A stretch of DNA of 64,000 nucleotides from Pukyongiella litopenaei (GTDB taxonomy: Bacteria > Pseudomonadota > Alphaproteobacteria > Rhodobacterales > Rhodobacteraceae). The stretch covers positions 1,922,001 to 1,986,000 of the forward strand of contig NZ_CP027665.1 of assembly GCF_003008555.2 (NCBI RefSeq). Reading direction: 5' to 3'. Below, one piece after another: positions 1,440-7,439 of this stretch. The notes beneath the pieces are model-generated. The model had not been told where the DNA came from. It saw only the letters and a list, made by a program, of their open reading frames with translations, and made no database searches. Every line of letters starts with the position of its first letter. The first letter of the stretch is position 1. Position numbers and translations under genes: made by a program.

Positions 1440-1514
1440 GCCCGGGTAGCTCAGGGGTAGAGCAGTGGATTGAAAATCCTCGTGTCGGTGGTTCGATTCC
1501 GCCCCCGGGCACCA
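1440..1514 (+). tRNA. tRNA-Phe (GAA)
   Basis: The acceptor arms GCCCGGG (1440-1446) and CCCGGGC (1504-1510) pair perfectly and are followed by A and an encoded CCA (1512-1514). The D arm contains TAGCTC, the T loop GGTTCGATTCC, and the anticodon loop TTGAAAA presents GAA for phenylalanine. The 3' half from 1468 is also the left attachment site of the integrated element, so this half was supplied by the element when it inserted, and the gene stays intact. Confidence 0.95.
1468..1508. repeat. attL: tRNA-Phe 3'-half direct repeat
   Basis: 41 bp identical to 6926-6966. It runs from the anticodon stem through the T arm into the acceptor stem. This copy completes the functional tRNA gene. Confidence 0.9.
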
Positions 1515-1569
1515 TTTAAATTCAATGGCTTAGACCAAATTTTGATGCCCATCGCACACTCTTGTTTTG

Positions 1570-1615
1570 TTCTGGGGGCGCGCTGGGGGCGCCTTTTGCA
1601 CGGGCTTGAAATGGT
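1570..1615. repeat. Left arm-type repeat of the island
   Basis: It contains two copies of TGGGGGCGC spaced 11 bp apart, then TTTTGCA and CTTG..ATGGT. It matches 6761-6805 nearly base for base. It sits in the non-coding 1515-1706 stretch between attL and the first gene, where I see nothing else. Position and symmetry fit binding sites for the integrase N-terminal arm-binding domain (inference). Confidence 0.6.
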
Positions 1616-1706
1616 CAATCCTAGCTGGATCGAGAAACGCGCGGATATCAGAAAAGGGTGTTTTATTACCTATGATTGCGCGGCGCTTCGGCGGTCTTCC
1701 TTGGCG

Positions 1707-2285
1707 CTACCGTGAATTCTTCCGGGCGCTGATCGTGGCCGTTTCAAGCGTAGAGGCAAGCCGGGCAATCTCGCCCAGGGCGCAATGAGGGTCCAGGGCG
1801 GCCAGGCGCCGGCCCAGGCTGACACAAAGCGTTTCGATCGGCATCGCCGCGACCGTGGGCGCCTTGCGCTTCCTGGGCGGGCCTTCCTTGCGGATCTTCG
1901 TCACGCTCTGGCGAAGGGTTCGCGGGTTCAGCGATGGCCGACCCTTCGCGCGCGCGGCAAGGTGGGCCCCCCATGCGGCGCGCACTTCGGTTTCATGTTC
2001 GGCGCACCAGGTCAGATCCATGCGCCAGTTTGTCGGCACCTCGGAAAACCCGGCTTCCGCGCACCAGCTCCGAAAGGCGGCGATGTAGGGCGCGCCTGTC
2101 GGAGTGTTCGCCCCGGCCTTCAGCATCGCGGCGCGGCGCCCCTCCAGCAGCGCCCGGCCGACGCATAGAAGTTGATCCAGCCCGAGTTCATGGGCGGCGC
2201 AGAAACGGCGCCAGGCATCCCGGCCGGCGAGAACAACCGGCGACACGCCCGGATGCAGCTCGAGCGCTTGCGCCGTTGCGCCCAT
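1707..2285 (-). CDS. Island protein of unknown function (192 aa)
   Basis: Last gene of the element, nearest attL. The ATG at 2285 is chosen because GGAAGGG lies 8 bases upstream; starts at 2318 and 2327 are possible but lack such a site. The protein is rich in Ala and Arg. Its C-terminal third is very basic (KIRKEGPPRKRKAP) and could bind nucleic acid. The middle holds conserved-looking Trp and Cys residues (WCAEAGF, WCAEHETEVRAAW). I recognise no family. It follows the 95-aa gene by 62 bases on the same strand, so it is probably co-transcribed. Confidence 0.65.
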   Translation of the reverse strand: MGATAQALELHPGVSPVVLAGRDAWRRFCAAHELGLDQLLCVGRALLEGRRAAMLKAGANTPTGAPYIAAFRSWCAEAGFSEVPTNWRMDLTWCAEHETEVRAAWGAHLAARAKGRPSLNPRTLRQSVTKIRKEGPPRKRKAPTVAAMPIETLCVSLGRRLAALDPHCALGEIARLASTLETATISARKNSR

Positions 2286-2347
2286 GATCTTCGCCCTTCC
2301 TTGCCTGCGCTCCTGCATCGGCACCATAGCGCAGGTTTGGGCAGAAT

Positions 2348-2635
2348 TCAGGATAGTGGCCCGGTCACGTCTTCACCCATCACCCGTAGCGCCCGCAGGC
2401 GGCCCAGCAGCGCCGCCACGGCTTCGGGATCACCGGCGCCCGCATCTGCCATGACCAGGCGGCGCACCTTGTCCGGCCGCACCCCGGCAATCGCGCAGGC
2501 GAAGCCGAATTCCTCGGACACCCCGGTCAGCCATGCGCGCGCCGCCTGGACCTTCCCCGCATCGCCGCGCATCTCTCCGAAAGCATGGGCAAGCGCCCGC
2601 TTTCCCGCCGCCCTTTCCCTGTCTCGGGCCTTCAT
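2348..2635 (-). CDS. Island protein of unknown function (95 aa)
   Basis: A short, mostly helical-looking protein that starts two bases after the stop of the upstream gene, which suggests a translationally coupled pair. It begins with a basic, Ala-rich helix (KARDRERAAGKRALAHAF) and has no Cys-His motif, signal peptide or membrane segment. No family is recognised. The codon use is like its neighbours, and the tight spacing makes it a likely real gene. Confidence 0.6.
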   Translation of the reverse strand: MKARDRERAAGKRALAHAFGEMRGDAGKVQAARAWLTGVSEEFGFACAIAGVRPDKVRRLVMADAGAGDPEAVAALLGRLRALRVMGEDVTGPLS

Positions 2636-2637
2636 GC

Positions 2638-2898
2638 TCAGGACAGGCGGTCAGGTTGGCGTGGTATGCCCTCCACGCAGTCGCGCAGCATATCGGATGC
2701 GGCAAACAGGAACGAAAGGCGCTTGTCTGGTGTCAGGTCACCCAGGCTTTCAGTCGCTATGCCGGAAACCGTGTCATCCGGTTCAAGCACCAACATCAAC
2801 GCAGGCCGCTTCGATGCCAGCAGCGCCCCTGCCAGTTCGTTGCCCGCATCCTGCACAATTGCCGACAGGCCGGTTGGTTTCGGTTCTTCGCTTTTCAT
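2638..2898 (-). CDS. Island protein of unknown function (86 aa), downstream of the repeat array
   Basis: The start at 2898 is preferred because a purine-rich tract of repeated GGAAAGAA blocks (about 2903-2932, minus strand) provides ribosome-binding sequence just upstream. The frame stays open through the 36-bp repeat array (to 3084), but the resulting N-terminus would be a simple 12-residue repeat, so the longer form is unlikely. The protein is acidic and soluble-looking, with no recognisable domain. It is the first gene after the iteron-like repeats, so any regulation or replication event at the repeats would affect it directly. Confidence 0.6.
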   Translation of the reverse strand: MKSEEPKPTGLSAIVQDAGNELAGALLASKRPALMLVLEPDDTVSGIATESLGDLTPDKRLSFLFAASDMLRDCVEGIPRQPDRLS

Positions 2899-2939
2899 GG
2901 TGCTTTTCCTTTCCTTCTTTCCTTCTTTCCTTCGGGGGA

Positions 2940-3107
2940 CACCAGATGTCCGGGTAGCGGTCACCAGTGTCCGGGTAGCGGTCACCAGTGTCCGGGTAGG
3001 TCCAACGGCCAACCGGACACCAGATGTCCGGGTAGGTCCAGCAGCCAACCGGACGCCAGATGTCCGGGTAGGTCCAGCAGCCAACCGGACGCCAGATGTC
3101 CGGTTAG
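2940..3107. repeat. Six-copy iteron-like tandem array
   Basis: The core CACCAG(A)TGTCCGGGTAG (or CGCCAG variant) starts at 2940, 2962, 2983, 3018, 3054 and 3090. The first three copies are 21-22 bp apart and the last three 36 bp apart. The 36-bp units also carry CCGGAC and GTCCGG in inverted orientation, giving each a dyad. The array fills the gap between the winged-helix gene (its stop lies in the last copy) and the 86-aa gene. Spacing near two and about three and a half helical turns suggests a protein-binding array: a replication origin or operator. Confidence 0.7.
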
Positions 3108-3616
3108 GGAGGTTGCGCCCGGCCGCTTCGCCTGGGCCGATCGGGCAAATTCGGCAACGGCCAACATATTCGGCGGATCATGGCGCCGCGCTCTCGGAAG
3201 CGGCGGGTCGCAGGTTCGATCCAGCCTGCATTTTCCAGATGTCGAAGACAGCGCCGCACGGTGCGTTCAGAAACACCCGACAGAAGCGCCAAGGTTTCAA
3301 CGCCAGGTGAGGTTTCGCCCGCATCGTTCACATGCATCAACAGCCCCGTGAGAATGGAATTCGGTGCGGCCCCCGGCAATCCCCGGCCAGCTTGACGCTC
3401 TTCCGCCAGGCGGGCTTTCACGGCAGATCGCCAAGCCGAATAGGATAGCGGCCGATCGGCCATGCCAGAATTGCCGCGCCGAATTTCTCCAGCGTCCAGC
3501 CTGGCCGAAAGCTCGTGCAGCGACGCCCGCCGCTTCGCATCGGCATCCGCGGTTTTCTCTGAAACCGGCACCTTGCCCACGCGCTGAAACCCACCCGCTC
3601 CCTTCCGCCGGCCCAT
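3104..3616 (-). CDS. Winged-helix DNA-binding protein, possible island replication initiator or regulator
   Basis: 170 aa from the ATG at 3616, which overlaps the stop of the upstream gene in TGATG; an in-frame start at 3670 is less likely. The central part (SPGVETLALLSGVSERTVRRCLRHLENAGWIEPATR) is a clear helix-turn-helix with a wing, like the HTH_36 domains of plasmid and phage replication proteins. The N-terminus is basic (MGRRKGAGGFQRV). An iteron-like array begins at its 3' end, the arrangement expected of a replication initiator beside its origin or a regulator beside its operator. No primase or helicase motif is present. The DNA-binding fold is well supported; the role is inferred. Confidence 0.7.
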   Translation of the reverse strand: MGRRKGAGGFQRVGKVPVSEKTADADAKRRASLHELSARLDAGEIRRGNSGMADRPLSYSAWRSAVKARLAEERQAGRGLPGAAPNSILTGLLMHVNDAGETSPGVETLALLSGVSERTVRRCLRHLENAGWIEPATRRFRERGAMIRRICWPLPNLPDRPRRSGRAQPP

Positions 3617-4374
3617 CAACACCGCTCCAGTTCGCCGCGCATGGCCGCGACAGCGCGCCACCAGATCCAAGGCGCAATTCGCTGTGGTGGCCCGAATTCC
3701 AGCACTCCCAGATCCAGCAGCGCCAGAACCAGGGCATCGGCTATCGCTTCGGAGACGCCCAGCGCGCCGCTCAGTTCGTTGGGAGACAGAAACGCACCCG
3801 GGCGTATGTGGTGGTGCCCGATGTTGCCCAGCCGGGCGCCCAGCGCCTCCAGGATGGCCGTGCGCACCAGATCGTGGGGCGCCCCCGGCAAGGCGCAGTC
3901 ATTCGCTCCAGCGGCCTCCAGTGTTGCGGCCATGTTCCAGCCCGCGCGTTCGCACAGGGCCAGCAACTCGCCCGTCATCGTCAGGCGTTCCCAGGCGCGC
4001 GGGCCTTGATCGTCATCCGAACGCATGGAAAGCGCTTCCTCGAGGGGCAATGCCAACTGCCCAGCCAACGACCTTGAGTTCCGATGCCGCGCCATGTGGC
4101 AGGTTCGACATAGCCAGATCACGTCCAGCGGCCGCGCATAGTTGACATGGTGCCCTTCGGTTCGGCGCCGCATCCCACAGTCGCCACACAGGTCCGCGCG
4201 CTCGAGCTCGCCACGCTGGATGGCCTGGGCGACTTGGAGCCTTGCCGCAATCTTCGGGGCGCTCGCCGGATTGTCGCGATAGGTCTGTTGCGCTCTGGCA
4301 TTCCGGCGCCGGTGCAGCTCGACCGCATCCGGCAAAGGAAGTTCCGGGAACAGGCAGGTTTGCAGATCGGACAT
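3616..4374 (-). CDS. Zinc-ribbon/HNH-like island protein
   Basis: 252 aa. Residues 63-97 hold C-x2-C, a HH pair (75-76), C-x2-CH (89-93) and a further His (97): a treble-clef/HNH-like metal site as found in phage HNH nucleases and phage zinc-ribbon proteins. The remainder is Ala/Leu-rich and may be a separate helical domain with an HTH-like stretch (LSPNELSGALGVSEAIADALV, about residues 196-216). It is coupled to the downstream winged-helix gene through TGATG. A nicking or recombination role at the repeats is possible, but catalysis is not demonstrated by the motif alone. Confidence 0.65.
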   Translation of the reverse strand: MSDLQTCLFPELPLPDAVELHRRRNARAQQTYRDNPASAPKIAARLQVAQAIQRGELERADLCGDCGMRRRTEGHHVNYARPLDVIWLCRTCHMARHRNSRSLAGQLALPLEEALSMRSDDDQGPRAWERLTMTGELLALCERAGWNMAATLEAAGANDCALPGAPHDLVRTAILEALGARLGNIGHHHIRPGAFLSPNELSGALGVSEAIADALVLALLDLGVLEFGPPQRIAPWIWWRAVAAMRGELERC

Positions 4375-4515
4375 GGCAAATTGCCTCCGACTGCGAAAGC
4401 GGATAGCTTCGCATTGATGGTTCCATCGGTTTCGGTGGATGGCAGCGCCGTGCGTATCCTTTCCCGGGTCCGCGCGGCGCTTTCAGTTCAGGCGGTCAAT
4501 GGACACGGTGTCGCG

Positions 4516-4734
4516 TCATTGCGCTGGTTCGCGCATCCCGTCGCGCATCGCCTTCAGTTCCCCGATATAGCCCAGCAGCTCTGACAGCAGCCAACGGCTC
4601 GAGCCCCCGGATTTCACGGGCGCAGGAAAGCGGCCCAGGGCAATGTCGCGGTAGATCGTTGCCCGCTTCTTGCCGGTCATCGCTTCAACATCGTCCATCG
4701 GCAATAGCCGTTCGGGATAGGTTTCCTGTTCCAT
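4516..4734 (-). CDS. AlpA-family helix-turn-helix regulator / excisionase-like protein
   Basis: 72 aa from the ATG at 4734 (an upstream in-frame ATG at 4773 is possible). The pattern ERLLPMDDVEAMTGKKRATIYRDIALGRFPAPVKSGG followed by RWL is the classic AlpA/MerR-type winged helix: helix-turn-helix, then the wing that reads the substrate DNA. AlpA proteins activate integrase expression or act as excisionases in P4-like satellites and integrative elements. Two near-palindromic 17-bp repeats lie about 85 bases upstream of the start, a natural operator. The 141-base gap before the zinc-ribbon gene holds no gene. Confidence 0.85.
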   Translation of the reverse strand: MEQETYPERLLPMDDVEAMTGKKRATIYRDIALGRFPAPVKSGGSSRWLLSELLGYIGELKAMRDGMREPAQ

Positions 4735-4817
4735 CTTTGCCCCCGTGTCTGGTTTCGCTTCTTTGCGATACACATTCGGATTGCATGGGCTCGAATTCTG
4801 TTCAATGCCGGCGCCGC

Positions 4818-4856
4818 CAGACTGGTCCAGTCTGACCGCCAGACTGGTCCAGTCTG
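4818..4856. promoter_or_regulatory. Two tandem operator-like inverted repeats upstream of alpA
   Basis: CAGACTGGTCCAGTCTG occurs at 4818-4834 and again at 4840-4856, exactly 22 bp (two helical turns) apart. Each is a perfect 8-bp inverted repeat around a central T. The pair lies between the 50-aa gene and alpA and is a good candidate for a cooperative repressor or AlpA site. The outer arms could also fold into one large hairpin, so a terminator for the upstream genes is an alternative. Confidence 0.6.
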
Positions 4857-4860
4857 GCGG

Positions 4861-5013
4861 CTACGAACGGAATCGATGTGAGCTTTCCACCCTATCAAGT
4901 CGGTTGGAGAGCCTTTCAATTCGGCGCTGCAGCTCTTCGACTTCGGCCTTGCGGTTGATTTGGGAGAAGTAGAGCCAGATCGCCAAGCCAACCAGGAGCG
5001 CAATTTCGATCAT
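4861..5013 (-). CDS. 50-aa membrane-anchored coiled-coil microprotein of the island
   Basis: ATG at 5013 overlaps the stop of the 169-aa gene (ATGA); the TAG is at 4861-4863. Residues 3-16 (EIALLVGLAIWLYF) form one membrane segment. Residues 22-44 (KAEVEELQRRIERLSNRLDRVES) follow a clean heptad pattern of hydrophobic residues and would form a cytoplasmic coiled coil. The start overlap, the conserved-looking composition and the lack of a competing gene support it as real. This type-I-like topology recalls phage and island proteins that interfere with superinfection or host division, but no function can be assigned. Confidence 0.65.
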   Translation of the reverse strand: MIEIALLVGLAIWLYFSQINRKAEVEELQRRIERLSNRLDRVESSHRFRS

Positions 5014-5519
5014 CGGTCGCCCTTCCCGTTTGCGGAATAGGAATAGTCGCTTTTCCTGAAGCCTTCTCTTCGTCGCAGCGTCGCTTCACTGGGCGCGCGC
5101 CGGTTCGATGGATCTTCTCTGGCCCAGTCGTTCAGCTTCTCCGAAACATGGCGCAGCATATCATTCCAGTTGAGCCCCTTCGCCTTGGCTTCATCCCTTA
5201 GACGGTTCGCGCGGGTGTTCCAGTCGCGCGCCTTGGCACTACGCATCTCGGGGCCCTCGGCCAGGTTGGATTTGCTTCGGTGCGCACCCTCAATCAACGG
5301 CCGCGCCAGATCGAATGCCGCAGGCCATTTTGACCCAGCAAGGTCAATCAATGTCGAGCGCTCACTGCAGAGCCAGGCGCATTCCTGAAGGACGTAGCGC
5401 AATCGTTTCTCAAGATCCTCGTCACCGATGCCCGCAATCTCTCGGGTCAGCTCTATGATTTCGATCTGGAGCAATCTTGCTCGCCCGGCTTCGCGGTCAA
5501 TCGCTTCCCGATCGCTCAC
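5010..5519 (-). CDS. Island protein of unknown function (169 aa)
   Basis: Begins within the integrase stop codon (ATGA, 5516-5519) and ends in the start of the 50-aa gene (ATGA), so int, this gene and the microprotein are one coupled unit. The sequence is charged and predicted helical, with an N-terminal amphipathic region (ARLLQIEIIELTREIAGIG) and a basic C-terminus (LRRREGFRKSDY). No Cys-His motif or membrane segment is visible. I do not recognise a family. Coupling to the integrase suggests a role in recombination directionality or element maintenance, but this is a guess. Confidence 0.6.
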   Translation of the reverse strand: MSDREAIDREAGRARLLQIEIIELTREIAGIGDEDLEKRLRYVLQECAWLCSERSTLIDLAGSKWPAAFDLARPLIEGAHRSKSNLAEGPEMRSAKARDWNTRANRLRDEAKAKGLNWNDMLRHVSEKLNDWAREDPSNRRAPSEATLRRREGFRKSDYSYSANGKGDR

Positions 5520-6724
5520 GCCCCCAACCTCACGACCTGCCCGGCCAAAGGTTCACCGGCAGCGCGCAACAGGATTGTAGCCCAGCGATCCAGCGCCTGG
5601 GCGCGTTGGGGCAGCAACTCCGATCGCTGATAGACGCGCGCCACGGCCGATACTCTCGAGCCGGTGGCGACGTGGTTCAGCACCCGGTCAACCACGCTTT
5701 CGGAAAGCCCGGCTTCCGCGCAATGCGAAGCAAAGGCGGTGCGCAGGTCGTGCAGCGTCCAGCCCGCGACCCCCGACAGCTTGTCCAGCCGTTCCTTGAA
5801 GCGGCCGAAACCGGAAATCGGCGTCTTGCCGGTGGTGGTGAATATCAGCCCCCTGGCGCTTTCGGCATCTTCGCGGATGCATTCGAGCTCGGCGACGGCC
5901 GGTTCCGACAGGTGAACGATATGTGGCTTTCCGTTCTTTGTGCGATTGCCCGGCAACGTCCAGCGGTCGCCCTCGAGCTCTTCCCAGCGCATCCCGGCCA
6001 CGTCGCCCCGGCGCTGGGCGGTCAGCATCAAGAGCCGGATATAGCCGCCCCACAGTGGCCCCAGCTTTTCAGCAGCGTTCCAGATCGCGCCCAGCTCCTC
6101 GAGTGTCAGCACCCGGTCGCGGCCTGTTTCCCGGTGCGGCTTTTCCAGCCGTTCGCCGATATTGGTTTCGGTGTAGCCGCGCCGGTGCGCCCAGCCCGCG
6201 AAATGCGACAGGCCGGCCAACAGGCGATTTGCCGCAACCGGCGTCTTTCGCGCTTTGTCATCCACCAGCGCTTGCAGATCGGCCTTGGACAATTCCGCCA
6301 TTGGGCGCGCCATATGGATCTTCAAGGCGCGCTTCAGCGCATTGTGGCGCCGGGCTTCGTCCTTCAGCTTCGCCAGGTGAAGATCTGCATAGCGGCCCAG
6401 CACCTCGGAAACCGATGTTGCCTGATCCACGCGCGCCGCGTGTCGTGCTTCTCGACGTTCGGCAACCGGGTCGCGGCCGGCTGTGACTTCCGCGCGCATG
6501 TGGCCGGCGGCGTTCCTGGCATCGCTCAGAGACATGGCCGGGTAGTTGCCCAGAACAAAGCGCCGGTCACGGCCATGCACCTTGAGCCGGATCGACCAGG
6601 TGCGTTCCCCCCTGGCGGTGTATCGGAAGTTGAGCCCGCGGCAAATCGTGTCGGTCAGCTCGAGCCGGCCGCTTTCGGGGCGGGGCAGCTTTCGCAGGGC
6701 AACTGCGGTCAGTTCGGTTTTCAT
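5516..6724 (-). CDS. int: P4-type tyrosine integrase
   Basis: 402 aa, normal length. Domains in order: an N-terminal arm-type DNA-binding domain of the DUF4102 type (about 1-90, with GRLELTDTICRGLNFRYTARG), a SAM-like core-binding domain (about 100-190), and the catalytic domain. Catalytic residues visible are Arg in LLMLTAQRRGDV, the HDLR box (TLHDLRTAFASH) and the nucleophile Tyr in ARVYQRS. It would cut the tRNA-Phe core repeat for integration and, with AlpA or another directionality factor, excision. It starts 200 bases inside attR, with an arm-type repeat between. Nothing in the reading frame looks broken. Confidence 0.93.
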   Translation of the reverse strand: MKTELTAVALRKLPRPESGRLELTDTICRGLNFRYTARGERTWSIRLKVHGRDRRFVLGNYPAMSLSDARNAAGHMRAEVTAGRDPVAERREARHAARVDQATSVSEVLGRYADLHLAKLKDEARRHNALKRALKIHMARPMAELSKADLQALVDDKARKTPVAANRLLAGLSHFAGWAHRRGYTETNIGERLEKPHRETGRDRVLTLEELGAIWNAAEKLGPLWGGYIRLLMLTAQRRGDVAGMRWEELEGDRWTLPGNRTKNGKPHIVHLSEPAVAELECIREDAESARGLIFTTTGKTPISGFGRFKERLDKLSGVAGWTLHDLRTAFASHCAEAGLSESVVDRVLNHVATGSRVSAVARVYQRSELLPQRAQALDRWATILLRAAGEPLAGQVVRLGA

Positions 6725-6760
6725 CTTCAGGTTTCCCGGGTCTGAAAGCGCCCCCGGCCA

Positions 6761-6805
6761 TTCTGGGGGCGCTTTGGGGGCGCTTTTTGCAAGCGCTTGG
6801 ATGGT
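6761..6805. repeat. Right arm-type repeat of the island
   Basis: The counterpart of 1570-1615, lying between the integrase start (6724) and attR. It has the same pair of TGGGGGCGC motifs 11 bp apart. The first motif also forms an inverted repeat with AGCGCCCCC at 6747-6755, so the site may also control integrase transcription (inference). Confidence 0.6.
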
Positions 6806-6925
6806 TTTGGCAGGTTCAAATTTGGACTGTCAGAGACAGAATATCAACACCAAGGCATTGCAAGAACAGGATATTTTTAGATCGTATGGGACAGGTCGAG
6901 ATTTTCGAAGAAATCTATGATCGGA

Positions 6926-6966
6926 GATTGAAAATCCTCGTGTCGGTGGTTCGATTCCGCCCCCGG
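6926..6966. repeat. attR: displaced tRNA-Phe 3' half
   Basis: 41 bp identical to 1468-1508. Just after it the sequence reads CCCCCGGCACC instead of CCCCCGGGCACC, so one G of the acceptor stem is missing. It lacks a 5' half and is not a tRNA gene. Confidence 0.9.
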
Positions 6967-7045: not shown

Positions 7046-7439
7046 GGCATTGTTGCAAAAGTCGGTCGGCGAAGGATTCACTTCGTGAATCCATGCCGTT
7101 AGACGCCCCCTCATGAGCAAGCCATCTTCCGCGCGCTATCGCACCACGAACTGGGCCAGCTGCAATGCATCGTTGCGCAAGCGAGGATCCCTGCTGATCT
7201 GGGTCGACAGGGAGATGACCTGGCTGGCGCCGCGTGACGGGCGTCCAGGACGTCCGCCGATTTTTTCCGATGCGGCCATACAATTCTGCTTGTCGATCAA
7301 AGCTCTGTTCAAGCTTCCGCTACGCCAGACCGCCGGGATGGTGGCCAGCCTGCTGAGGATGGCAGGGCTGGACTGGCCGGTTCCGGACTTCTCCACGCTG
7401 TGCCGCAGGCAGAAGACCCTCGCCGTGCAGACCTCCTAA
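7046..7439 (+). pseudogene. Truncated IS5-family insertion sequence
   Basis: The left end GGCATTGTTGCAAAAGTCGG (from about 7046) is typical of this group. The transposase frame starts at 7113 and gives the familiar N-terminus (WVDREMTWLAPRDGRPGRPP, then LFKLPLRQTAGMVASLL and FSTLCRRQKTLAVQ) but stops after 108 residues, about a third of the full length. The DDE catalytic domain and right inverted repeat are missing. The IS lies about 80 bases outside attR and is a dead remnant. Confidence 0.85.

Follow-up and report, generated by a model that had tools for sequence, protein, structure and literature searches.

A 5.5-kb integrative element in the tRNA-Phe gene of Pukyongiella litopenaei resembles a minimal phage satellite in layout

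The stretch of DNA analysed here, referred to as the window, covers 64,000 nucleotides of contig NZ_CP027665.1 from the marine-type bacterium Pukyongiella litopenaei (positions 1,922,001 to 1,986,000). Its tRNA-Phe(GAA) gene (1440–1514, plus strand) is the integration target of a putatively mobile element that measures 5,458 bp between its att repeats, start to start. The 3′ part of the gene is restored by the attL of the element, where a 41-bp core lies in the 3′ half of the tRNA (1468–1508); the attR core at 6926–6966 is an exact copy. Both repeats agree with an earlier sequence-only reading, which had described a self-contained tRNA-Phe element of about 5.5 kb with att sites that were intact apart from one base outside the core. 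The base in question is a G that is absent immediately 3′ of the attR core (GGCACC as compared to GGGCACC). When the flanks were joined in a script, the resulting empty site had an acceptor-stem gap and a C-C mismatch in tRNA-Phe. Since this is the sole full copy of tRNA-Phe found in the host genome, the window strain would be expected to suffer from excision. A fragment of an IS5-type transposase, recognised by eye from its translation, is located directly outside attR (7113–7439).

Nine genes lie between the att repeats, all on the minus strand: int, p169, p50, alpA, hnh, whth, p86, p95 and p206. The tyrosine integrase (5516–6724) contains Arm-DNA-bind_3 and Phage_integrase domains and conserves the catalytic residues R238, K263, H325, R328, H351 and Y365. 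It is overlapped through ATGA by p169 (5010–5519), which in turn is coupled through ATGA to p50 (4861–5013), whose short product has a coiled coil and a hydrophobic N-terminus. The excisionase/regulator gene alpA (4516–4734; PF05930 above cut-off) is the only AlpA in the host genome. The hnh gene (3616–4374) matches phrog_2340 with an E value of 9e-19; of the earlier label of zinc-ribbon protein, zinc binding was retained while the match identifies the protein as HNH-type. Its structure model was poor, the HNH part being modestly modelled and the rest poorly, and the model was not used. Joined to hnh by TGATG is whth (3104–3616), a winged-helix protein with HTH_36 above cut-off that resembles phage initiators and is a candidate replication initiator. 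The remaining genes, p86 (2638–2898), p95 (2348–2635) and p206 (1707–2285), are of unknown function. No homologue of p86 was present among the fetched loci. The fold of p206 had no match in the PDB and one weak structural match to a protein of an uncultured caudovirus. Thus, the integrase, AlpA and winged-helix protein proposed from the sequence were all recognised by family searches, and the tight couplings proposed with them are present. Capsid, terminase, relaxase, primase and cargo families were not matched in the nine proteins (family searches; PADLOC was not run), in keeping with the earlier statement that known cargo, capsid and relaxase genes are missing.

An integrase alignment was scanned against genome contigs and the best 80 loci were considered; further sisters may exist. 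The top match, in Aliiruegeria haliotis DSM 29328, has an integrase that is 92% identical and belongs to an element of 5,486 bp (start to start) that is likewise integrated in tRNA-Phe, has the same gene order and is bounded by perfect 49-bp att repeats. The common order may be considered in terms of int, an int-overlapping gene, alpA, hnh, whth, iterons, p95 and p206. This sister keeps every part required for integration (core, arm sites and Int), and joining its flanks by the same script yielded a normal tRNA-Phe. It lacks p50, and the place of p86 is taken by a second winged-helix paralogue. Beyond the integrase, protein identities are 53% for p169, 78% for AlpA, 66% for the HNH protein, 34% for the winged-helix protein, 49% for p95 and 59% for p206, whose length is 192 amino acids when counted from the start position that both elements have in common. 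The ratio of nonsynonymous to synonymous substitution (dN/dS) is 0.06–0.29 in six of the seven shared genes, for which purifying selection is clear, and 0.62 for whth, where dS is near-saturated. At the nucleotide level int is 84% identical and most of the unknown genes are 49–61% identical, a mosaic divergence which suggests modules with different histories. The chromosomal flanks of the two elements share no DNA; thus, they most likely integrated separately.

From a sister with the same order and site, it follows that the element in the window is not the decayed end of a prophage. It is a genuine, rare and minimal integrative element that is complete, and the two 5.5-kb elements in different genera constitute a real, very small family. 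In this respect the sequence-only reading has fared well: the gene order that it proposed to seek beside tRNA-Phe in other genomes was found in A. haliotis, its suggestion of a very small class of integrative element gained a second member in another genus, and the outcome that it held to be damaging, homologues only as decayed prophage ends, did not arise since the A. haliotis homologue is complete. The family is not widespread. A p206 profile applied to 395 genomes of the same family, essentially one per genus, matched only the genome of the window. A combined whth and p169 query of the genome contigs returned nothing, though it is weak evidence of absence since these proteins are too diverged for it to have detected even A. 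haliotis. Most related genomes have only one tRNA-Phe and no partial duplicate of it. With no att duplication, attB is normally empty in these genomes.

Near each att core is a candidate arm-type integrase site. On the attL side (1573–1592, plus strand), two direct copies of TGGGGGCGC form a stretch that is identical in the sister, and two direct copies lie on the attR side (6764–6783, plus strand). The pattern TGGGGGCGCNNTGGGGGCGC, which has an expected number of 0.00 in 64 kb, occurs at both of these positions. Exactly two sites are present in each element, one near each att core, and among 202 fetched loci the pattern is confined to both elements and further copies of the window element. 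The TGGGGGCGCNNTGGGGGCGC pairs look like arm-type integrase sites, which would fit the arm-binding domain of Int, and the 2+2 arrangement is common to both elements. Along with the integrase, the tRNA-restoring att repeats and the predicted excisionase, these putative sites complete the set of features that define an integrative element of tRNA genes.

The iteron-like array proposed earlier was located at 2940–3108, where 21-bp (×2.8) and 36-bp (×3.6) repeats make up a candidate replication origin. Its core, GTCCGGKT, is found nine times within 2948–3105 at a spacing of 21/15 bp, with 4.7 copies expected in the whole 64 kb. In the sister, GTCCGGTT occurs five times and every copy is inside the array. 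In both elements the 3′ end of whth is where the phased repeats are located, and the core is shared; it has been kept beside the initiator gene though the winged-helix proteins are so diverged. The array of the sister lies partly within the winged-helix gene, an arrangement that resembles the O/ori of lambda-type phages. With a putative initiator gene and an adjoining phased repeat array, the element appears to have the two components of an iteron replicon.

Two further sites flank alpA. Upstream of the gene, two palindromes CAGACTGGTCCAGTCTG with a 22-bp period (4813–4861) form a candidate operator, and the sister has a related inverted repeat in the corresponding position. Between alpA and hnh, a region of about 120 bp with three dyads (about 4365–4485) is 92–98% identical to the sister in 60-base windows, making it the best conserved stretch outside of att; the neighbouring genes are 71–80% identical. 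No significant RNA fold was predicted for it despite the inverted repeats (z = −1.8 and −1.5), and Rfam identified no family beyond tRNA. The region probably carries a strong cis function, the candidates being a promoter or operator, an origin, or a packaging site. A 31-bp match within it (4416–4446) to tadA/cpaF at 90% identity in two related genomes was rejected as probably due to chance; the match is inside coding DNA, and in the sister an indel disrupts the matching frame.

Integrases that are 39–51% identical to that of the element are common in islands of Rhodobacteraceae. Where the identity was at least 39%, an open reading frame overlapped the stop of int by 4 nt or touched it (TGATG) in 21 of 43 loci and alpA was no more than 2.5 kb away in 24; for more distant integrases, the corresponding counts were 5 and 1 of 37. 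Islands that could be delimited, at tRNA-Lys, -Asn, -Arg and -Phe, span 7–14 kb and the two 5.5-kb elements are the smallest, to the extent that the flanks permitted delimitation. The related islands carry VapE/DUF5906, DUF3987 or Toprim replication proteins, as well as HsdM restriction, GmrSD-type defence or a major head protein. Among them, islands of Fertoeibacter niger, Maritimibacter and Pseudogemmobacter have integrases of the same family (43–46%), and those of Fertoeibacter and Pseudogemmobacter start like the element with int, a companion and alpA. Unlike the element, they are 10–14 kb in length, occupy tRNA-Asn or tRNA-Lys and contain primase or ParA-type genes, sometimes with restriction cargo.

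The closest parallel in layout is provided by the phage-inducible chromosomal minimalist islands (PICMI), satellites of Vibrionaceae which are 6.1–6.7 kb in size (PMC10803314). The sequence-only reading had placed the element below the size of known satellites; this claim does not hold, given a group of nearly the same size and layout (PMC10803314). At 5.46 kb, the element is nevertheless smaller than PICMI115 (6.11 kb), the smallest satellite with characterised activity. PICMI115 of Vibrio chagasii measures 6,110 bp and is a satellite whose helper is a virulent Vibrio phage. Its layout is int-iolg(ATGA)-alpA-up1-prim-up2, in which int, iolg and alpA are required for excision and prim for replication; it has no packaging genes and its concatemers are packaged in full-sized heads (PMC10803314). 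The element is similar in its 5–7 kb range, with int overlapped by a companion through ATGA, alpA next and a replication gene further on, in its short operons, in the lack of capsid-remodelling or packaging genes, and in its single copy per genome. Int and AlpA co-localise as they do in PICMI. The int-overlapping gene, frequent though not universal in PICMI, is represented by the ATGA overlap in both elements, where p169 is a positional analogue of iolg; the likeness is one of position only. In contrast to PICMI, the element sits in tRNA-Phe as opposed to a site adjacent to fis, has a winged-helix initiator, iterons and an HNH protein, orders its other genes differently and is found in Rhodobacteraceae. 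It is PICMI-like in layout, yet it is not a PICMI since neither the primase nor the fis site is present.

Other known systems are more distant. P4-like satellites share the integrase and AlpA; however, no match to psu, sid, delta, epsilon or the alpha primase-helicase was obtained and the element is about half their size. With respect to phage-inducible chromosomal islands (PICI) and capsid-forming PICI, distant relatives of int, whth and hnh occur in two capsid-bearing islands (L075 and L076), while in the element no primase, terS or capsid genes were matched and there is only the initiator-like winged-helix protein. The relaxase and type IV secretion genes that mark integrative conjugative or mobilisable elements were not found among its proteins.

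On balance, the element is probably a phage satellite of Rhodobacteraceae that resembles PICMI but would have an initiator and iterons in place of the primase. Judging from the sequence, Int would pair the core in the tRNA-Phe 3′ half with the arm sites at both ends. By homology, AlpA may act as the excisionase switch, controlled at the palindromes upstream of alpA, and p169 may replace the int-overlapping gene on which excision of PICMI depends. Replication of the excised circle would then start at the iterons, which the winged-helix initiator would open together with the HNH protein, and would rely on replication machinery supplied by the host or a helper phage. In the least certain step, an infecting phage might, as with PICMI, package the multimers whole into its unaltered heads, a strategy that would need no capsid or terminase gene of the element's own, and a new host would be entered at tRNA-Phe. 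A more specific proposal, that the two elements represent a distinct alphaproteobacterial satellite family with its own initiator and iterons and that the helper recognises the 120-bp alpA-hnh sequence, is tentative.

Several observations weigh against a satellite. The primase, which is mandatory in the published model of PICMI and present in most satellites, was not found in the nine proteins, and only two members of the family are known. Viral contigs scanned with p169, whth, p206 and two DNA motifs contained no copy, and the element has no known helper phage, excised circle or packaged DNA. The host yielded no intact helper prophage, with only a gene transfer agent-like cluster and a terminase remnant examined; a helper, should one exist, could be a virulent phage. 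Finally, with attR damaged, excision is predicted to leave this strain with a defective tRNA-Phe, although the defect would be of no consequence in a lethal helper infection and the circle itself would carry an intact 3′ end.

Some of these points would suit a small autonomous element that integrates and replicates without a phage helper, in effect an integrating mini-plasmid spread by general transduction, natural transformation or vesicles. Int, an excisionase, an initiator and iterons all fit an integrating replicon, nothing in the sequence is virion-specific and no phage contig carries the element. This alternative is nevertheless unlikely. The int-companion-alpA chassis and the close relatives of the integrase belong to satellite-like islands, some with head genes, and, as PICMI demonstrates, missing virion genes are no argument against a satellite (PMC10803314).

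A variant of the satellite interpretation, with which its probability overlaps, assigns hnh, a small-terminase-like whth and the repeats, taken as cos or pac sites, to a packaging module that would redirect the helper terminase and not to replication. In cos phages, the genes are ordered cos-HNH-terS, and the winged helix is also a fold of small terminases. In the element, a non-coding region that hardly varies is followed directly by hnh, which recalls this order, and the winged helix is shared. The variant is quite improbable, however, as whth matches phage replication initiators and HTH_36 as opposed to small terminases, the HNH homologues adjoin replication or nucleotide genes where these can be named and not terminases, and the conserved 4365–4485 region has no convincing match in phages. 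Least probable of all is that the element is what is left, reduced and now immobile, of a larger satellite or prophage. The damaged attR, the transposase fragment outside it and the larger relatives of 7–14 kb with the same integrase family might point to this, but a sister of the same size and order has perfect 49-bp att repeats, and the coding sequences, catalytic residues of the integrase and arm sites all remain intact and under selection. The window copy alone could still be immobile.

If the PICMI-like satellite proves active, fewer genes than known would be sufficient to hijack a tailed phage and the minimal-satellite plan would extend beyond Vibrionaceae. The essentials of a satellite could be tested on the seven genes that the two elements share, together with their two arm sites, iteron array and single 120-bp sequence. 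In the window strain, the element may have trapped itself in a tRNA gene that is essential and present in one copy.

Elsewhere in the host genome, one region (L201, 9037–14592; about 2615–2621 kb of contig C1) encodes TerL, HK97 portal, protease, capsid and connector in gene transfer agent order. Gene transfer agent particles hold about 4 kb, less than the size of the element. A second region (L198, 13309–19968; about 1208–1215 kb of C1) has small and large terminase, prohead protease and helicase-primase genes between housekeeping genes and appears to be a remnant of a prophage or a capsid-forming satellite.

Among the relatives of the integrase, two elements (L101, 14748–16568, and L102, 13034–15106) carry the phrog_21712 'major head protein', with L101 containing an additional HNH gene and a phrog_6247 topoisomerase-like gene. 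At 35% integrase identity, the short island L075 has an O-like initiator beside portal and major capsid genes, and L076 has an HNH gene and a primase joined to portal and capsid genes; both look like capsid-forming satellites of Rhodobacteraceae. Record MT837765.1, an unannotated 'Bacteriophage sp.' sequence of 6,250 bp from the human gut, contains a full-length integrase that is 32% identical and may be another small integrase-bearing element. Partial copies of tRNA-Phe were also observed in genomes G002, G018 and G022. In G018 (contig C1, 501757–532178), an intact tRNA-Phe is followed by two partial copies about 21.6 and 30.4 kb further on, which suggests two tandem elements of about 21.6 and 8.8 kb at one attachment site.

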